NCBI RefSeq assembly: GCF_022808715.1
Contig: NZ_JAKZKX010000010.1
Span: 62,001-126,000 of the forward strand
DNA length: 64,000 nt
Source of the DNA: Fundidesulfovibrio agrisoli
Lineage (GTDB): Bacteria; Desulfobacterota; Desulfovibrionia; Desulfovibrionales; Desulfovibrionaceae
Reading direction: 5' to 3'
The notes beneath the pieces were generated by a model. It was not told the DNA's origin. It did not search any database and saw only the letters and a list, made by a program, of their open reading frames with translations. Below are positions 32,405 to 39,234 of the stretch, in pieces. Each line of letters opens with the position of its first letter. Position 1 is the first letter of the stretch. The position numbers and the translations under genes were made by a program.

Positions 32405-35400
32405 CTACCCCCTGGGCAGCCCCCGGCCCTTCCAGAGCGCGAAGATGGCCGGATACAGGAGCAGCTCCAGGATGGTTGAGGTCACCACGCCGCCGATCAT
32501 GGGCGCGGCGATGCGCTTCATCACGTCCGAGCCCGCGCCCGTGGAGAACATCACCGGCAGCAGGCCCGCCAGGATCACGGCCACGGTCATGATCTTGGGG
32601 CGGATGCGCTTCACCGCGCCGTGCTCCACGGCCTCGCGCAGGTCCGCCTGGGTCTTGAGGCGGCCCTCGTCCCGCCACTGCTTGTAGGCCAGCTGCAGGT
32701 AGAGGAGCATGACCACGCCCGTCTCAGCGTCCAGGCCCGCCAGGGCGATGATGCCCACCCACACCGCGATGCTCAGGTTGTAGCCCAGCAGGTAGAGCAG
32801 CCAGAATGAACCCACCAGGGAGAAGGGCACGGCCAGCAGCACGATGCAGGTGGAGGCCAGGGACTTGGTGTTGATGTAGAGCAGCATGAAGATGATGAAG
32901 ATGGTCAGCGGGATGACCATCTCCAGCCGCTCCTGGGTGCTGACCAGGTTCTCGTACTCGCCGCTCCAGACAAGGCGGTACCCGGCAGGCAGCTGCGGCA
33001 GCACGGCCTCCGCCACGGCCTTTTTCAGGCCGTTGACGTAGCCGCCCACGTCGGAGCCGGTGAAGTCGATGTAGACGTAGGCCGTGGGCATGCCGCCCTC
33101 GCTCTTTATCATGGAGGGGCCGTTGGTCACCTTCACGTTGGCCAGCTCGCCGAGCGGCACCTGCAGCATCCTGCGCGGCGCGGGCGGAACGCCCATCCTT
33201 GGCCTGGCCTCCTCGCCGCCGGGGCCTGCGCCCTGCACCGGAACGAGCATGGCCTTGATGGTCTCCACGTCCTGGCGCAGCTCGCGCGGGTAGCGCACGT
33301 TCACGGGGTAGCGCTCCCGGCCCAGGATCACGGTGGTCAGGTTGCGCCCGCCCACGGCGGACTCGATGATGTCCTGCACGTCGGCCACGGTGAGCCCGTA
33401 GCGCGCGGCGGCCTGACGCTTCACGCTGATGTCCAGGTAGTAGCCGGTGTTGACCTTGTCCGCGAACACGGAGCGGGTGCGCGGGTCGCGCTTGACCACC
33501 TCCTCCAGTTTGGTGCCGATCATCTCGATCTCGGCCAGGTCCGGCCCCAGGATCTTGATGCCCACCGGGGTGCGGATGCCCGTGGAGAGCATGTCGATGC
33601 GGGCCTTGATGGGCATGGTGAAGGCGTTGACCACCCCCGGTATCTGCAGGCGGGCGTCCAGCTCGGCCTTGAGCTTCTCCACGTTCATGCCCGGGCGCCA
33701 CTGGGCCTCGGGCTTGAGGTTGATGACCGTCTCGAACATCTCCATGGGCGCGGGGTCCGTAGCGGTCCCGGCGCGCCCGGCCTTGCCGAACACCTGGGCC
33801 ACCTCGGGCACCGAGGCCAGGATGGAGTCCTGCAGCTTGAGGAGCTTCCCGGCTTCGGCGATGGAGATGCCGGGCATGGTCACGGGCATGTAGAAGAGCG
33901 TGCCCTCGTAGAGCGGGGGCATGAACTCCGAGCCCAGGCGCGTCACGGGCCAGACCGTGGCCGCCATGACCAGCACGGCCAGCAGGATCATGGTCTTCTT
34001 GAAGCGCAAGGCCAGCAGCACGAAGGGGTGGTAGATCAGGCGCAGCACGTGGCTGAGTGGGTTCTTGTCCTCCGGGCGCACTGTGCCCCGGATGAAGAGC
34101 GTCATGAGCATGGGCGTGAGCGTCACGGCCAGGAAGGCCGAGAAGAGCATGGCGAAGGTCTTGGTGTAGGCCAGGGGCTTGAACAGCCGCCCGGCCTGCC
34201 CCTGGAGCGTGAACACGGGCAGGAAGCCCACGGTTATCACCAGCAGGGAGAAGAACAGCGAGGGCCCCACCTCCTGCGCGGCCTCCAGGATGACCTCCAC
34301 GCGGGAGCCGGGCCTGCCCGCGTGCTCCCACTCCTCCAGCTTCTTGTGGGCGTTCTCCACCATGATGATGGCCGCGTCCACCATGGCGCCGATGGCGATG
34401 GCGATGCCGGAGAGGCTCATGATGTTGGAGGTCACGCCCAGGGCGTTCATGCAGATGAAGGAGATGACGATGGCCAGCGGCAGGGTCAGGATGATGACCA
34501 GGGCGCTTGGCAGGTGGAACAGGAAGACCACGCACACCGCGCTCACGGCCACGGTGAGTTTGACGATCTCCTCCGTGAGGGTGGAGATGGCCCTGTGGAT
34601 CAGGTCGGAGCGGTCGTAGGTGACCTCGAACCTTACGCCCGGCGGCAGCGATGGCGCGACCTCGGCTATCTTGGCCTTCACCCTGTCGATCACGGAGAGC
34701 ACGTTCTCCCCGAAGCGCACCACCACGATGCCCCCCGCCACCTCGCCCCGGCCGTCAAGGTCGGCAAGGCCCCGGCGCATCTCCGGCCCGAGGCTCACCT
34801 GGGCCACGTCCTTGAGGAAGACGGGCGTGCCCCGGTTGTCCGTGCCCACGGAGACGCTCTCCAGGTCCGCCAGGCTCTTCACGTAGCCGCGCCCGCGCAC
34901 CATGTACTCCGTGCCGGACATCTCCACCACGCGGCCTTCCACGTCGTTGTTGGAGAGGCGCACGGCCTCCAGCACCTTCTGCAGGGGCAGGCCGTAGCCG
35001 AACAGCCGCCCCGGGTCCACGGTGATCTGGTACTGGCGCACGAAGCCGCCCAGCGAGGCCACCTCGGAGACGCCGGGCACGCTCTCCAGGGCCAGCTTGA
35101 CGTTCCAGTCCTGCAGGGAGCGCAGCTGGGAGAGGTCGAGCCGCCCGGACGTGTCGACCAGCGCGTAGGAGAAGCCCCAGCCCAGGCTGGTGGCGTCCGG
35201 GCCGAGCACGGGGTTCACGTCGGCCGGTATCTTGGCGCGCACCGACTGCAGGTATTCCAGAACCCGCGAGCGCGCCCAGTAGATGTCCGTGCCTTCCTTG
35301 AAGATCACGTAGATGAAGGACGAACCCAGGAAGGAGAAGCCGCGCACCGCCTGCACGCCCGGCGCGGCCAGCAGCGAGGTGACGATGGGGTAGGTGACCT

Positions 35401-35593
35401 GGTCCTCCACCAGGTCGGGGCTGCGGCCCTGCCACTCGGTGTAGACGATGACCTGCGGGTCCGAGAGGTCCGGGATGGCGTCCAGGGGCGCGCTGCGCAT
35501 GGCCCACACGCCCCACAGCCCCAGCGTGGCGCACATGATGGTCACGATGAGCCTGTTGCGGCCCGAGAACCCGATGATGCTCTGGATAATCAT
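32405..35593 (-). CDS. cusA: Copper/silver efflux RND pump CusA
   Basis: A 1062-residue RND transporter with the usual 12 helices and two large periplasmic loops. It is the proton-driven inner-membrane pump of the CusCBA tripartite system, exporting Cu(I)/Ag(I). The three methionines that form the metal site of E. coli CusA (573, 623, 672) are all present, at 569 (FYMPVTMPG), 619 (APMEMFETV) and 668 (RIDMLSTGIR), at a constant offset of four. This supports monovalent copper or silver rather than the divalent Czc substrates. GIAIAIGAMVDAAIIMVENAHK in helix 4 carries the proton-relay acids. It lies 12 bases downstream of cusB at the end of the operon. Confidence 0.95.
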   Translation of the reverse strand: MIIQSIIGFSGRNRLIVTIMCATLGLWGVWAMRSAPLDAIPDLSDPQVIVYTEWQGRSPDLVEDQVTYPIVTSLLAAPGVQAVRGFSFLGSSFIYVIFKEGTDIYWARSRVLEYLQSVRAKIPADVNPVLGPDATSLGWGFSYALVDTSGRLDLSQLRSLQDWNVKLALESVPGVSEVASLGGFVRQYQITVDPGRLFGYGLPLQKVLEAVRLSNNDVEGRVVEMSGTEYMVRGRGYVKSLADLESVSVGTDNRGTPVFLKDVAQVSLGPEMRRGLADLDGRGEVAGGIVVVRFGENVLSVIDRVKAKIAEVAPSLPPGVRFEVTYDRSDLIHRAISTLTEEIVKLTVAVSAVCVVFLFHLPSALVIILTLPLAIVISFICMNALGVTSNIMSLSGIAIAIGAMVDAAIIMVENAHKKLEEWEHAGRPGSRVEVILEAAQEVGPSLFFSLLVITVGFLPVFTLQGQAGRLFKPLAYTKTFAMLFSAFLAVTLTPMLMTLFIRGTVRPEDKNPLSHVLRLIYHPFVLLALRFKKTMILLAVLVMAATVWPVTRLGSEFMPPLYEGTLFYMPVTMPGISIAEAGKLLKLQDSILASVPEVAQVFGKAGRAGTATDPAPMEMFETVINLKPEAQWRPGMNVEKLKAELDARLQIPGVVNAFTMPIKARIDMLSTGIRTPVGIKILGPDLAEIEMIGTKLEEVVKRDPRTRSVFADKVNTGYYLDISVKRQAAARYGLTVADVQDIIESAVGGRNLTTVILGRERYPVNVRYPRELRQDVETIKAMLVPVQGAGPGGEEARPRMGVPPAPRRMLQVPLGELANVKVTNGPSMIKSEGGMPTAYVYIDFTGSDVGGYVNGLKKAVAEAVLPQLPAGYRLVWSGEYENLVSTQERLEMVIPLTIFIIFMLLYINTKSLASTCIVLLAVPFSLVGSFWLLYLLGYNLSIAVWVGIIALAGLDAETGVVMLLYLQLAYKQWRDEGRLKTQADLREAVEHGAVKRIRPKIMTVAVILAGLLPVMFSTGAGSDVMKRIAAPMIGGVVTSTILELLLYPAIFALWKGRGLPRG

Positions 35594-35605: not shown

Positions 35606-37084
35606 CTAATGGTGGTGATGCTCGCCGCCGCTGCCGCTCTTGAGGCGCGTTTCGGCGTCCAGGAGGAAGTTGGCGGAGGAGGCCACCTTGGTGCCGGGGG
35701 CCAGGCCGGAGAGAATCTCCACGAAGCCGCCGGAGCGGATGCCGGTGGTCACGTCCTGGGGCTCGAAGTTGTTGGGGCTGGACTCGTAGTAGACCACCTT
35801 GCGCAGGCCCGTGTCTATGATGGCCGACTCGGGCACGGCCAGGCGCTGGCCCAGGTCGGTGCCCATCTGGATCTCGGCGTACATCTCGGGGCGCAGCAGG
35901 CCCTTGGGGTTGGGCAGCACGAAGCGCACCTTGGCCGTGCGGGTGTCGGCGGCGATCACGGGGTAGATCTGGGCCACCTTGGCCGTGAGCGGCGGGCCGG
36001 AGACGCCCGTGAGGGTGATGAGCGCGGCCTGGCCCTCCTTGAAGAAGGGCAGGTTCTCCTCGTAGACGTCGGCCAGCACCCATACGGTGCTGAGGTCGGC
36101 CAGGTCGTAGAGCTTCTCGCCCGGGGCCACCTGCATGCCCAAGGTGGCCTGGCGGGAGATCACGTAGCCGTCCACCGGGCTTGTGAGCACGTAGTCGCGC
36201 GAGGGCTTGCCGGTCTTCTCAAGCTGGGCTGCCAGGCCGCCCGCGTCCAGCAGGGCCAGGCGCTGCCTGGCGGCGGCGAGCAGGGCCTGGCTGTCGTTTG
36301 CGAGCATGGCCGCGTATTCGCCCCCGCCTTCCGTCGAGGCTTTGGGCTGGGCGCTCCTCCAGCGCAGCAGGTTCAGGTACTCCAGCTGCGTGGCGTAGAC
36401 CTCGGGGCTGTAGATGGCCAGCAGGGGCTGGCCCTTTTTGACCATCTGGCCGGTGTGGTCCACCATGAGGCGCTCCACGTAGCCTTCGGCCTTGGTGGTC
36501 ACGGTGGCCAGGCGGGTTTCGTCCGGCGCCACGCGCCCCGTGGCCCGGATGATGGTCTTGAAGGGGCGCATGGCCGCCTGGGTGACGGTGACGCCGATGA
36601 GCTTGGCCTGTTCGGGGGTGAGCATGGCCATGGGGGGCATCGTTCCGGAGGCCGGAGGCGCTCCGTGGCCCTCGTGCCCTGAAGACGCCGGCGCGGCAGG
36701 CGCGCCGTGCCCGGCGTGGCCCTCGTGCCCGGCGGACGCGGCCGGTGTGGCGGGAGCCGCCGGTGCGCCATGGCTGGAATGATCCATGCCAGAGGTTGGG
36801 GCCGGGGCGGGCTGCTGCACGCTCTGGCTTCCGGAGGACATGTCCATGCCGGGCATGGAGTGCCCGGCGTGCCCCTGCTGCGGCGCTTGTGGCGGAGCCT
36901 GCGGCCCGGCCGGGGCCGGGGCGCCGTGCCCGGAGTGGTCCATCCCGGCCATGGAGCCCGTCCCGCCCGGTTGGGCCGGGGCCTGGGCCAAAACTCCGCC
37001 CGGCAACGCCAGCGCGGCGGCCAGGCAGGCCGCCAGCAACACGTCCTTCAACGTCGGTCCCGCCGTGGATGGCAACGCCCGCAT
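35606..37084 (-). CDS. cusB: Cus efflux adaptor CusB with long His/Met-rich N-terminal extension
   Basis: A 492-residue periplasmic adaptor with a signal peptide (about 1-34). Residues 45-141 are a low-complexity segment rich in His, Met, Gly, Ala and Pro with repeated GMDHSGHG, GHAGHSMPGMDM, SGMDHSSHG and GHEGHAGHG elements. The canonical adaptor follows from about 153 (MLTPEQAKLIGV), with the lipoyl and hairpin region (AEGYVERLMVDHTGQMVKKGQPLLAIYSPEV) and beta-barrel (ADLSTVWVLADVYEENLPF). The protein ends GGEHHHH. E. coli CusB carries only three N-terminal Met ligands, so this extension may act as a metal sponge feeding CusA. No separate cusF is present. The operon order is cusC, Met-repeat gene, cusB, cusA. 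Confidence 0.92.
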   Translation of the reverse strand: MRALPSTAGPTLKDVLLAACLAAALALPGGVLAQAPAQPGGTGSMAGMDHSGHGAPAPAGPQAPPQAPQQGHAGHSMPGMDMSSGSQSVQQPAPAPTSGMDHSSHGAPAAPATPAASAGHEGHAGHGAPAAPASSGHEGHGAPPASGTMPPMAMLTPEQAKLIGVTVTQAAMRPFKTIIRATGRVAPDETRLATVTTKAEGYVERLMVDHTGQMVKKGQPLLAIYSPEVYATQLEYLNLLRWRSAQPKASTEGGGEYAAMLANDSQALLAAARQRLALLDAGGLAAQLEKTGKPSRDYVLTSPVDGYVISRQATLGMQVAPGEKLYDLADLSTVWVLADVYEENLPFFKEGQAALITLTGVSGPPLTAKVAQIYPVIAADTRTAKVRFVLPNPKGLLRPEMYAEIQMGTDLGQRLAVPESAIIDTGLRKVVYYESSPNNFEPQDVTTGIRSGGFVEILSGLAPGTKVASSANFLLDAETRLKSGSGGEHHHH

Positions 37085-37115: not shown

Positions 37116-37553
37116 CTATTGCTGGCCCTGGTTCATCTTCATCATCTCCTCGGGCGACATCTCCTTCATCTGGCCGGGCTGGCCAGGCTGGCCAGTCTGG
37201 GATGGCTGGGCCTGCCCGTGCGCCCCGTGCTGGGCGTGGCTGGCGGGCATGGCCTGCATCTGCTCGGGCGACATCGCCTTCATCTGCTCAGGCGTCATCT
37301 GCTCCATCTGCTGGGGAGTCATAGCCTTCATCTGCTCGGGGGTCATGTGGCGCATGAGCTCCGGCGGCATGTTGTGGATCTCCTCCGGGGTCATCTGGCG
37401 GACCTCCTGCGGGGTCATGGCCTTCATCTGCTCGGGGGTCATCATATGGCCGGAGCCGCCGTGCCCGCCGTGCTGCATCTGGGCCTGGGCCACGCCGCCC
37501 AGGGCGATCAGGGAGGCCGCGGCAAGAGAGAGGATCAATTGCTTCGATTTCAT
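37116..37553 (-). CDS. Periplasmic Met-rich octapeptide-repeat protein of the cus operon
   Basis: A 145-residue protein starting at ATG 37553, with GAGG six bases upstream, eight bases after the cusC stop. Residues 1-24 are a signal peptide (MKSKQLILSLAAASLIALGG). The mature N-terminus is His/Gly-rich (QMQHGGHGGSGHM). Residues 38-101 are eight tandem octapeptides of the form M-T/S/P-P-E/Q-x-M/I/V-x-x, such as MTPEQMKA (three times), MTPQEVRQ and MPPELMRH; a ninth related unit ends the protein (MSPEEMMK). A His/Gln-rich linker lies between. Met and His in this density suggest Cu(I)/Ag(I) binding, in the place CusF would take. I know no named family for it; its role is inference from composition and operon position. 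Confidence 0.85.
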   Translation of the reverse strand: MKSKQLILSLAAASLIALGGVAQAQMQHGGHGGSGHMMTPEQMKAMTPQEVRQMTPEEIHNMPPELMRHMTPEQMKAMTPQQMEQMTPEQMKAMSPEQMQAMPASHAQHGAHGQAQPSQTGQPGQPGQMKEMSPEEMMKMNQGQQ

Positions 37554-37561
37554 GTTCCACC

Positions 37562-39016
37562 TCATTTCAATTTGGCCGGGGCGTTGCGGGCGCCCGTCGC
37601 TGCGTCCCCGGTGGGAGGCTGCGCGGCGTCCCCGCCCTCGTCCAGTGGTTTAGGGATGTTCAGCCCGTCGGAGAAGCCCGCCAGGCTCTCCAGCCTCGCG
37701 ATGGCCTTCTGCTTCTCGGACAACTGGATCCAGTACTGCACTTCGTAGTCCAGCACGGCCTTGAGCCGGGCGACCACGGCGTAGATGTCGCCCTTGCCTC
37801 CGGCGTAGTTCGCGGCCGCGAGCTGGAAATCCTGCCGGGTCTTGGGCAGGGTTCCGCCGGCGAACAGCTCGCTCAGCTTCTCGGCGGACTGGAGCATGGA
37901 ATAGTTCTCACGGATGGAGGAGGCCACGAGGTTCTTGCCCGCCTCAAGGTCGTAGCGGGACTCGGCCAGGTCCGCCCGGGACTCCTTGAGGCCCTCGGCC
38001 TGTTTGACGAAGAAGTACAGCGGCACCGTCACGGAGACGCCCGCGCTCCACATGTCCTGCCATTTCTGCTTGATGCCGGCCGGGCCGAGCAGCTCCGAAC
38101 CGTCCGGGCCGGTGACCGACTGGGGTTCCTGCGCGATCCTCCAGCCCTTCTGGGAGTATCCGGCCGAGAGGGTCACGTCCGGCACGAACTCGGCCTTGGC
38201 CTGGGAGACCTTGGCTTCGGCCCGCTCCACCTTCTTCATCCGGGCCTTGGTGTCCGGGGAGTCGAAGGATGCCTTGACCAACAGGTCCTCCAGGCTGCGC
38301 TTGTAGGGGGCCTTGGAGGGCTCGGAGGGCTTGGCCAGGGGGGAGTTGACCTCCCTCCCAAGCATGGAGTTGAGCATGCCTTCCAGGGTGGAGAGGCGCT
38401 GGCGGACCATCTGCTCCTTCTCCTTGAGCATGTACTTCTCGGTCTGGGCCATCACGGCGTCGCGCTGGTCGCCCAGGCCGGAGGCGTAGCGGGCCAGCGC
38501 GGCCTTCTCCACCTGATCCAGAAGTTTGGCCTTGTCGTCGAGTATCTCGAGGGTGCGGTGCGCGGTGAACAGGTCGTAGTAGAGCTCCTTGACCCGGGCC
38601 ACGGTGGAGAGGCGCAGGGCGTGCAACTGCAGGCCCAGGGTCTCCATCTCCTTCTCGGCAACGCGGCCCTTCTGCACGAGCTTGCCCGGGAAGGGCACGG
38701 TCTGGGAGACGCCGAAGGCCCACACCGAGTCGTAGGAGTTGCCGAAGGTGTACTGGCTCAGGCCCGTGTTGGTGTACCCGGCGGAGACCGAGGGGTCGGG
38801 CAGGGCCTTGGCCTGGGGGATGCGGTGCCGGGCGGAGGTGACGCGCTGCTGCCCGGCGCTCAGCTCGGGGTTGTTCTTCAGGGCTTCGCCCACCAGGGCG
38901 TTCAGGTCGAGCGTCTCGGCGGCCTGCGCCGGGGGGATGAGCAGGAGGGCGCAGAGGGCCGCGCAGCAGGCCAGCTGCAGGGCGGTCGGGCGAAGCGGGG
39001 CGGGCGTCTTGGTCAT
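37562..39016 (-). CDS. cusC: Outer-membrane efflux channel CusC (TolC family)
   Basis: A 484-residue TolC-family protein starting at ATG 39016 with a signal peptide (ALQLACCAALCALLLIPPAQAAETL). There is no clear lipobox, so unlike E. coli CusC it may not be lipidated. The repeated helical pattern (LNALVGEALKNNPELSAGQQRVTSARHRIPQAKALPDPSVSAGYTNTG near the N-terminus and the related AESRYDLEAGK and GGKGDIYAVVARLKAVLDYEVQYW later) is that of the two OEP halves. It provides the outer-membrane duct for the CusBA pump. It is the first gene of the cus operon; the open frame continues upstream but the extension has no signal sequence. The C-terminal 40 residues are Gly/Ala-rich. Confidence 0.9.
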   Translation of the reverse strand: MTKTPAPLRPTALQLACCAALCALLLIPPAQAAETLDLNALVGEALKNNPELSAGQQRVTSARHRIPQAKALPDPSVSAGYTNTGLSQYTFGNSYDSVWAFGVSQTVPFPGKLVQKGRVAEKEMETLGLQLHALRLSTVARVKELYYDLFTAHRTLEILDDKAKLLDQVEKAALARYASGLGDQRDAVMAQTEKYMLKEKEQMVRQRLSTLEGMLNSMLGREVNSPLAKPSEPSKAPYKRSLEDLLVKASFDSPDTKARMKKVERAEAKVSQAKAEFVPDVTLSAGYSQKGWRIAQEPQSVTGPDGSELLGPAGIKQKWQDMWSAGVSVTVPLYFFVKQAEGLKESRADLAESRYDLEAGKNLVASSIRENYSMLQSAEKLSELFAGGTLPKTRQDFQLAAANYAGGKGDIYAVVARLKAVLDYEVQYWIQLSEKQKAIARLESLAGFSDGLNIPKPLDEGGDAAQPPTGDAATGARNAPAKLK

Positions 39017-39201
39017 GGCGTAATCCGCGTTGGGGTGAAGCCGGGGAATAGAAAAGATAGTTAGGGCATCCACGGGATTATTGCAATGACAAGCGGGAGA
39101 ATACCGCATGTTGATCGATGCATCGAACCTCGGCAGGGCGTGCGCCCCGGGGGGCGGCGGAGCGCCTGGCCGAGCCGCCGGCGGGCATACCGCCCGCAAC
39201 G

Positions 39202-39234
39202 AAAAAGGCCCCGGACCGTGCGGTCCGGGGCCTC
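39202..39234 (-). terminator. Rho-independent terminator of groESL
   Basis: On the minus strand a perfect 12-bp stem (AGGCCCCGGACC with GGTCCGGGGCCT, 39206-39217 with 39222-39233) is followed by TTTTTC. It lies 25 bases past the groEL stop. Beyond it is a second small hairpin (GCGGGC/GCCCGC at 39181-39197). The rest of the gap to cusC, the presumed cus promoter region, shows no clear consensus promoter or operator. Confidence 0.9.

Follow-up and report, generated by a model that had tools for sequence, protein, structure and literature searches.

A methionine-rich octapeptide repeat protein conserved in the Cus operons of one bacterial genus, a candidate Cu(I)/Ag(I) buffer or donor

Between cusC and cusB of the Cus operon in the window (the whole stretch of DNA analysed, 64,000 nucleotides) lies a gene for a small secreted protein built of methionine-rich octapeptides, hereafter the Met-octad protein. 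A conserved, genus-level protein of this kind in a Cus operon without CusF is real, and it is a novel variant rather than a novel kind; we found no description of it in the open-access literature. From its sequence and setting, we consider that it probably serves the CusCBA pump in the periplasm by buffering or donating Cu(I)/Ag(I). The features of the locus are as follows.

37116..37553, minus strand: Met-octad repeat protein gene, 145 aa (open reading frame and GAGG; orthologues share the cusC-cusB slot)
37479..37553, minus strand: putative signal peptide, residues 1-25 (sequence read by eye)
37443..37478, minus strand: His/Gly-rich mature N-terminus, residues 26-37 (sequence reading)
37251..37442, minus strand: eight tandem octads of the M-T-P-E-Q-M-K-A type, residues 38-101, a predicted short-helix solenoid (lag-8 test, AlphaFold2, Pfam ALTTAQ, HeliScrew4)
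37137..37160, minus strand: detached ninth octad MSPEEMMK, residues 132-139 (sequence reading)
37562..39199, minus strand: cusC-type outer membrane factor (Pfam OEP; probable ATG at 39016 by comparison with the relative G003)
35606..37084, minus strand: cusB-type adaptor with a Met/His-rich N-terminal extension and a His tail (Pfam HlyD_D23; CusB 3t51_B)
32405..35593, minus strand: cusA-type RND pump with Met569, Met619 and Met668 (TIGR00914 above cut-off; alignment with E. coli CusA)
39205..39234, minus strand: terminator-like hairpin between groEL and cusC (pattern scan)

The gene order on the minus strand is cusC, Met-octad gene, cusB and cusA. The cusC stop and the Met-octad start are 8 nt apart, the Met-octad stop and the cusB start 31 nt. 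Translation from the ATG at 37553 gives 145 residues, and a Shine-Dalgarno-like GAGG ends 6 bases upstream of it; an alternative in-frame ATG at 37565, four codons upstream, is absent from some orthologues. The protein has a signal-peptide-like start (Lys, a hydrophobic core and AQA, judged by eye), and its mature part of 120 residues, with 22 Met, 8 His and no Cys, begins with HGGHGGSGH. The octads start at residues 38, 46, 54, 62, 70, 78, 86 and 94, and a linker rich in His, Gln, Gly and Pro separates them from the ninth. When the mature protein was compared with itself at a lag of 8 residues, 40 identities were observed, whereas 2000 shuffles averaged 11.8 and never exceeded 24, and the other lags from 5 to 12 gave at most 17; in the DNA at lag 24, 120 of 171 positions were alike, the shuffle maximum being 64. 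A chance origin of the repeat is ruled out by these tests in protein and DNA. The original prediction, which described a secreted protein with a His/Gly-rich start, eight tandem octapeptides at residues 38-101 and a ninth at the end, spaced as an operon member between cusC and cusB, thus stands in all these points; its coordinates were exact, and only the strand had been left unstated.

The scan for terminator-like hairpins returned 7 such sites against 3.0 expected, and the stem of the one between groEL and cusC was the longest, with 13 pairs. With this hairpin intervening, and with a groEL-cusC distance of about 1.1 kb in G003, groESL is unlikely to be a member of the operon.

The pump itself was assigned from CusA, which scored 1095 bits against TIGR00914 (the CusA/CzcA model, cut-off 701) and aligned with E. 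coli CusA over nearly the whole length. The Met triad is retained, Met569, Met619 and Met668 standing where E. coli CusA has Met 573, 623 and 672, which we take to be its Cu(I)/Ag(I) ligands. CusA also carries the signature AIGAMVDAAIIMVEN, which conforms to AxGxxxDxxxxxxEN, presumably the rule for the Cu/Ag subgroup (HME4-like). Because of the CusA score, the Met triad and the signature, cus is a fair name for the operon, and the pump appears to be of the Cu/Ag kind, as had been proposed. CusB and CusC matched, among other NCBIfam models, some for divalent metals, below the cut-offs of those models. The Met/His-rich N-terminal extension of CusB (35606-37084) exceeds 100 residues, and the protein ends in an HHHH tail; its length varies among orthologues, from 427 to 507 residues in four relatives, with 492 in the window. 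In the host genome dsrA scored over its cut-off, and the host is therefore probably a sulfate reducer.

The position of the Met-octad gene between cusC and cusB is that of cusF in cusCFBA. CusF is a small beta-barrel, whereas the Met-octad protein is made of repeats, is predicted to be all-helical and had no PF11604 among its Pfam matches up to E 1, which agrees with the earlier remark that it has no CusF sequence. The same model did not find CusF in the host genome, although it detected the E. coli control. The copper ligands of CusF are Met47, Met49 and His36 (PMC9302797).

We determined how far the protein extends among relatives. In the genus, an orthologue occupies the cusC-X-cusB-cusA slot in all five operons with a visible cusC-cusB gap, so that the repeat is present in the cus loci of close relatives, which supports the earlier proposal. 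Pump and Met-octad protein co-occur, five of seven genus genomes having both and two neither as far as found, in a sample of seven genomes from one genus in which one of the latter two (G006) is only 66% complete; the five genomes with the protein are the same five in which CusA is at least 87% identical. A second CusA in G004 lies at a contig end, with its upstream genes out of view. In G005, a Gly/Met-rich, secreted-looking open frame was observed just upstream of cusC (L019:9937-10335, minus strand).

Outside the genus, the matches were of other kinds. The search of the host and its relatives matched 6 of 59 genomes, namely the host, four congeners and G030, the last through a giant repeat protein. 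In the class, 18 of 297 genomes matched: the five genus genomes and 13 through other repeat sequences, of which 11 have octad frames of at least 2000 residues, G163 has a frame of 455, and the match in G112 (L036) falls in a DNA repeat readable in several frames. In the phylum (E <= 1e-6), 3 of 395 matched, consisting of the host, G063 with a giant repeat and G443, an antisense artefact. G443 (L114) was rejected as a relative, the match being the antisense of the Met/His repeat at the C-terminus of CusB. This locus, from another family of the phylum, encodes on its minus strand a CusB whose C-terminal tail consists of about nine copies of an octapeptide of the MDHGDMKD kind. A wider scan of genome contigs gave at least two relatives, L022 (Acidobacteria) and L023 (Actinomycetota). 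Their octad, of the FTPEQMKAM or MSPDQFMKM kind, alternates and is looser (L022:787-2637, L023:2854-3684); no cus genes were among the frames examined in L022, and the L023 contig stops just past the match. A mobile-element or phage source was rejected, with no matches in plasmids, phages or viral contigs, and none of the PADLOC families matched the protein.

We also surveyed the slot outside the genus. A search with CusB (E <= 1e-30) matched 36 of 149 class genomes, and all 35 non-genus match regions (32 genomes) were inspected for ATG-started frames of at least 40 codons. The Met-octad protein was found in none of these 35 cus-type loci, whose genomes the sequence searches above also covered, and is therefore not a general Cus partner. 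In ten of them a small secreted protein of the CPVMG...YFCC..C type is encoded between CusC and CusB; the one compared with Pfam YHS scored 29.3 bits, just below the cut-off of 30.3, and these proteins are likely to be another metal-handling accessory. In two of the ten (L112 and L113), the gap contains in addition a Met-rich secreted protein with MMMxG repeats. A protein of this family in L079 is 24% Met, and the two members tested against Pfam had no match over cut-off.

Loci L085, L086, L093, L103, L104, L105, L106, L108, L112 and L113: YHS-like gap proteins
L112:2349-2771, the L113 gap and L079:7917-8378 (downstream of cusA): MMMxG-repeat secreted proteins

The remaining 25 loci, among which L080 and L081 have CusA on the opposite strand, show no small secreted gene in the gap, and the pump there therefore needs none. 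Most of the non-genus CusB proteins are only 30-38% identical and may be components of different metal pumps. Of the 35 loci, 11 have a complete Met triad and two, L087 and L108, a broken one; in the rest the alignment covers it incompletely. The CusF model matched none of the 37 genomes in which a CusB or CusA relative is present, namely the 36 from the CusB search plus G005; it detected the E. coli control and found CusF in 7 of the 149 class genomes, none of them among the 36. The role of the slot may thus recur with unrelated small proteins of metal type (YHS type, MMMxG type), the Met-octad protein being specific to its genus.

The passenger explanation, in which an octad repeat protein sits in the operon by happenstance with no metal role, accords with its confinement to one genus and its absence from the 35 loci, but is hardly credible for a protein kept in five visible genus operons despite heavy silent divergence and with conserved Met columns.

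The octad resembles known repeats. The best Pfam match was the ALTTAQ repeat (PF20080). It is a borderline one: the cut-off is 26.4 bits, the whole protein scored 25.8 and the repeat domain by itself 28.5. When the genomes were searched, PF20080 gave 22.7 bits, and no genus genome exceeded the cut-off. A match to Pfam CAAP1 stood exactly at the cut-off (25/25 bits, domain alone) and was taken as chance. TAL effector profile matches were set aside because they reflect a TPEQ-like start within repeats that we take to be longer than the octad. The ALTTAQ family and the giant ALTTTQ proteins share with the Met-octad protein the eight-residue period, Thr or Ser after a hydrophobic residue and hydrophobic positions 1 and 6. 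The giant proteins, mostly frames of some 2000-3100 residues, differ in length and in having Leu at position 1; the Met-octad protein has 145 residues, lies in a cus operon and has Met there. Such giant ALTTTQ-octad frames, about 2000-3100 residues long, were observed in L024-L048 except L036, mainly in genera g25 and g42, in 11 genomes of the family; of three giant-type loci inspected, L024 yielded no frame under the filter applied.

The chain of HeliScrew4 (PDB 9zem), with octads of the LTPEQIAA type, aligned in register with the Met-octad protein at E 2.5e-20, although E-values are inflated for repetitive sequences. Compared by sequence alignment only, it differs in having mostly Leu or Ile where the Met-octad protein has Met. 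For so simple an octad, independent origin is possible. No paper on HeliScrew4 was found in the open-access literature. The suggestion that the protein is an undescribed type of Cus partner is supported in part: it is conserved in the cus operons of its genus, but it is not a general partner, and its octad resembles ALTTAQ and HeliScrew4.

AlphaFold2, given the window sequence alone, predicted one helix of 4-6 residues per octad (40-44, 48-52 and onward at the same step). For the whole protein, pLDDT was 84-89 in blocks over residues 41-100, with a mean of 69.4 and pTM of 0.43, and for residues 34-108 alone the mean was 84.5 and pTM 0.61. Foldseek gave no match at E <= 0.001, the best Z in the fold comparisons was 5.8, and a viral structure library yielded nothing below E 0.1; 9zem was not in the fold search lists. 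The weak matches were to short-helix arrays of mesothelin, MgtE and FliG, and this resemblance is taken as a common short-helix arrangement.

We next consider the methionines. In the five orthologues, 38 of the 40 octads have Met at position 1 and 2 have Leu (7 of the 8 columns being invariant); position 6 is Met in 26, Ile in 12 and Val in 2, and position 3 is Pro in 40 of 40. Among 1225 in-phase octads of the giant relatives, by contrast, 1099 have Leu and 63 have Met at position 1, and 101 have Met at position 6, as counted over 28 frames in 28 loci that are pieces of larger frames, deduplicated and chosen blind to positions 1 and 6. A choice leaning to Leu (frames with at least 4 ALT) gave 1462 octads, with Leu in 1260 and Met in 73 at position 1 and Met in 114 at position 6. 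The 65-residue core of each orthologue has 13-15 Met and no aromatic residue. There are 6 to 8 MxxM motifs per orthologue, the tail included, and HxxM or MxxH is missing from the window protein and from 4 of the 5 orthologues, a single HxxM occurring in G005.

Silent sites have diverged strongly: the window agrees with G005 or G002 at 4 of 14 four-fold sites and with its nearest relative, G003, at 10 of 17. DNA identity was 0.79 between octads of the same index in different genomes and 0.68 between octads within one genome. Repeat homogenisation as the source of the uniform Met was rejected because orthologous octads of the same index are the closer ones, and this likeness, together with the silent divergence, indicates that the array is older than the species split. 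With diverged silent sites and unhomogenised octads, the Met of the octads therefore appears, from these comparisons, to be kept by selection.

A fold can be proposed in which each octad would form one short helix, with Thr2 as N-cap and Pro3 in the first turn, and the helices would stack into a small solenoid. In a hydrophobic staple the residue just ahead of the N-cap packs against the fourth residue of the helix, and Thr2 and Pro3 would put Met1 and Met6 at the staple positions. Met1, Met6 and the MxxM that spans Met6 and the Met1 of the following octad would then face one another in the core, an inward orientation suggested by the hydrophobic pattern. Met-only sites favour Cu(I)/Ag(I), and Met also serves as a plain hydrophobic core residue. 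The rows of thioethers in the core would take up Cu(I)/Ag(I), and the His/Gly flanks may capture metal or pass it on, either to the Met/His-rich extension at the start of CusB or to the Met triad of CusA. A buffer or donor near CusB is the likeliest role because Met-only sites prefer Cu(I)/Ag(I) and because CusF and SilE provide ligand precedents; the protein would stand in for CusF or SilE while related to neither. Counting against this role are the use of Met as an ordinary core residue, the Met/His-rich extension that CusB itself possesses, the 25 loci of other genera with no small secreted gene in the gap and the weak fold matches.

A more detailed version can be offered only tentatively, namely that a Leu-core octapeptide solenoid was converted position by position to a Met core and became an ordered, thioether-lined store of several Cu(I)/Ag(I) that replaces CusF; it would parallel the Cys-lined copper storage proteins (Csp) in a soft, releasable form. 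Csp are Cys-lined four-helix bundles with a sulfur-ligand interior. The likeness lies in the idea of an interior lined with sulfur ligands, and the Met-octad protein differs in having no Cys and in being a repeat array.

SilE and PcoE offer the closest occasion for doubt about an ordered core. Like the Met-octad protein, they are small, periplasmic, Met/His-rich accessories of Cu/Ag resistance operons with helix ligands 3-4 residues apart (PMC5008109). The metal motifs of SilE are HxxM and MxxH according to PMC5008109 and PMC10080550; the Met-octad protein has MxxM octads instead, is predicted to be ordered and is set apart by these motifs, and no SilE-named family was among its Pfam or NCBIfam matches. 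The octads might nevertheless be a sponge of the SilE/PcoE type, disordered in the apo form and turning helical only on binding several Ag(I)/Cu(I). SilE is reported to be disordered when free and to fold on six Ag+ through Met/His ligands at i, i+3 or i+4 (PMC5008109); the MxxM of the octad has the i, i+3 spacing, and AlphaFold2 on a single sequence can display a metal-dependent fold. We nevertheless consider this rather unlikely, since the conserved N-cap/proline pattern (Pro3 in 40 of 40) favours an ordered apo form, pLDDT of the octads is good without an alignment, the solved chain of HeliScrew4 has similar octads, and HxxM/MxxH is missing in all orthologues except for the one motif in the fifth. 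Among other copper proteins, a disordered Met/His region of PcoB is described in PMC12509749, and CopM is the subject of PMC4335983.

The small solenoid could instead help the pump to assemble, binding CusB or CusC free of metal, with Met as a flexible core residue. Solenoids often bind proteins, the gene is placed between those of two proteins that must dock, and the core Met could reflect packing. However, Met has replaced Leu at position 1 almost completely and conservedly across the orthologues, a change that packing by itself would not require, and the slot genes of other genera, where present, are of Met-rich or Cys-rich type; such a helper is distinctly unlikely. An oxidant sink, in which Met of this protein is oxidised in place of the pump Met and repaired by Met sulfoxide reductase, has a parallel in E. 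coli, where copper stress oxidises CusF Met and MsrPQ repairs it (PMC9302797), but is very improbable in a host with dsrA that is probably an anaerobic sulfate reducer, and for Met placed on the hydrophobic positions of the repeat.

We therefore return to the Met-octad protein as a probable buffer or donor. Should it bind Cu(I)/Ag(I), it would store metal in modules, its capacity being expected to rise in step with the number of octads, and it would be a third solution, unrelated to the other two, for the task of CusF and SilE. More widely, the Cus-type pumps found in the class have no recognisable CusF in the 37 genomes searched, and the Met-octad, YHS-type and MMMxG-type proteins are candidates for feeding them.
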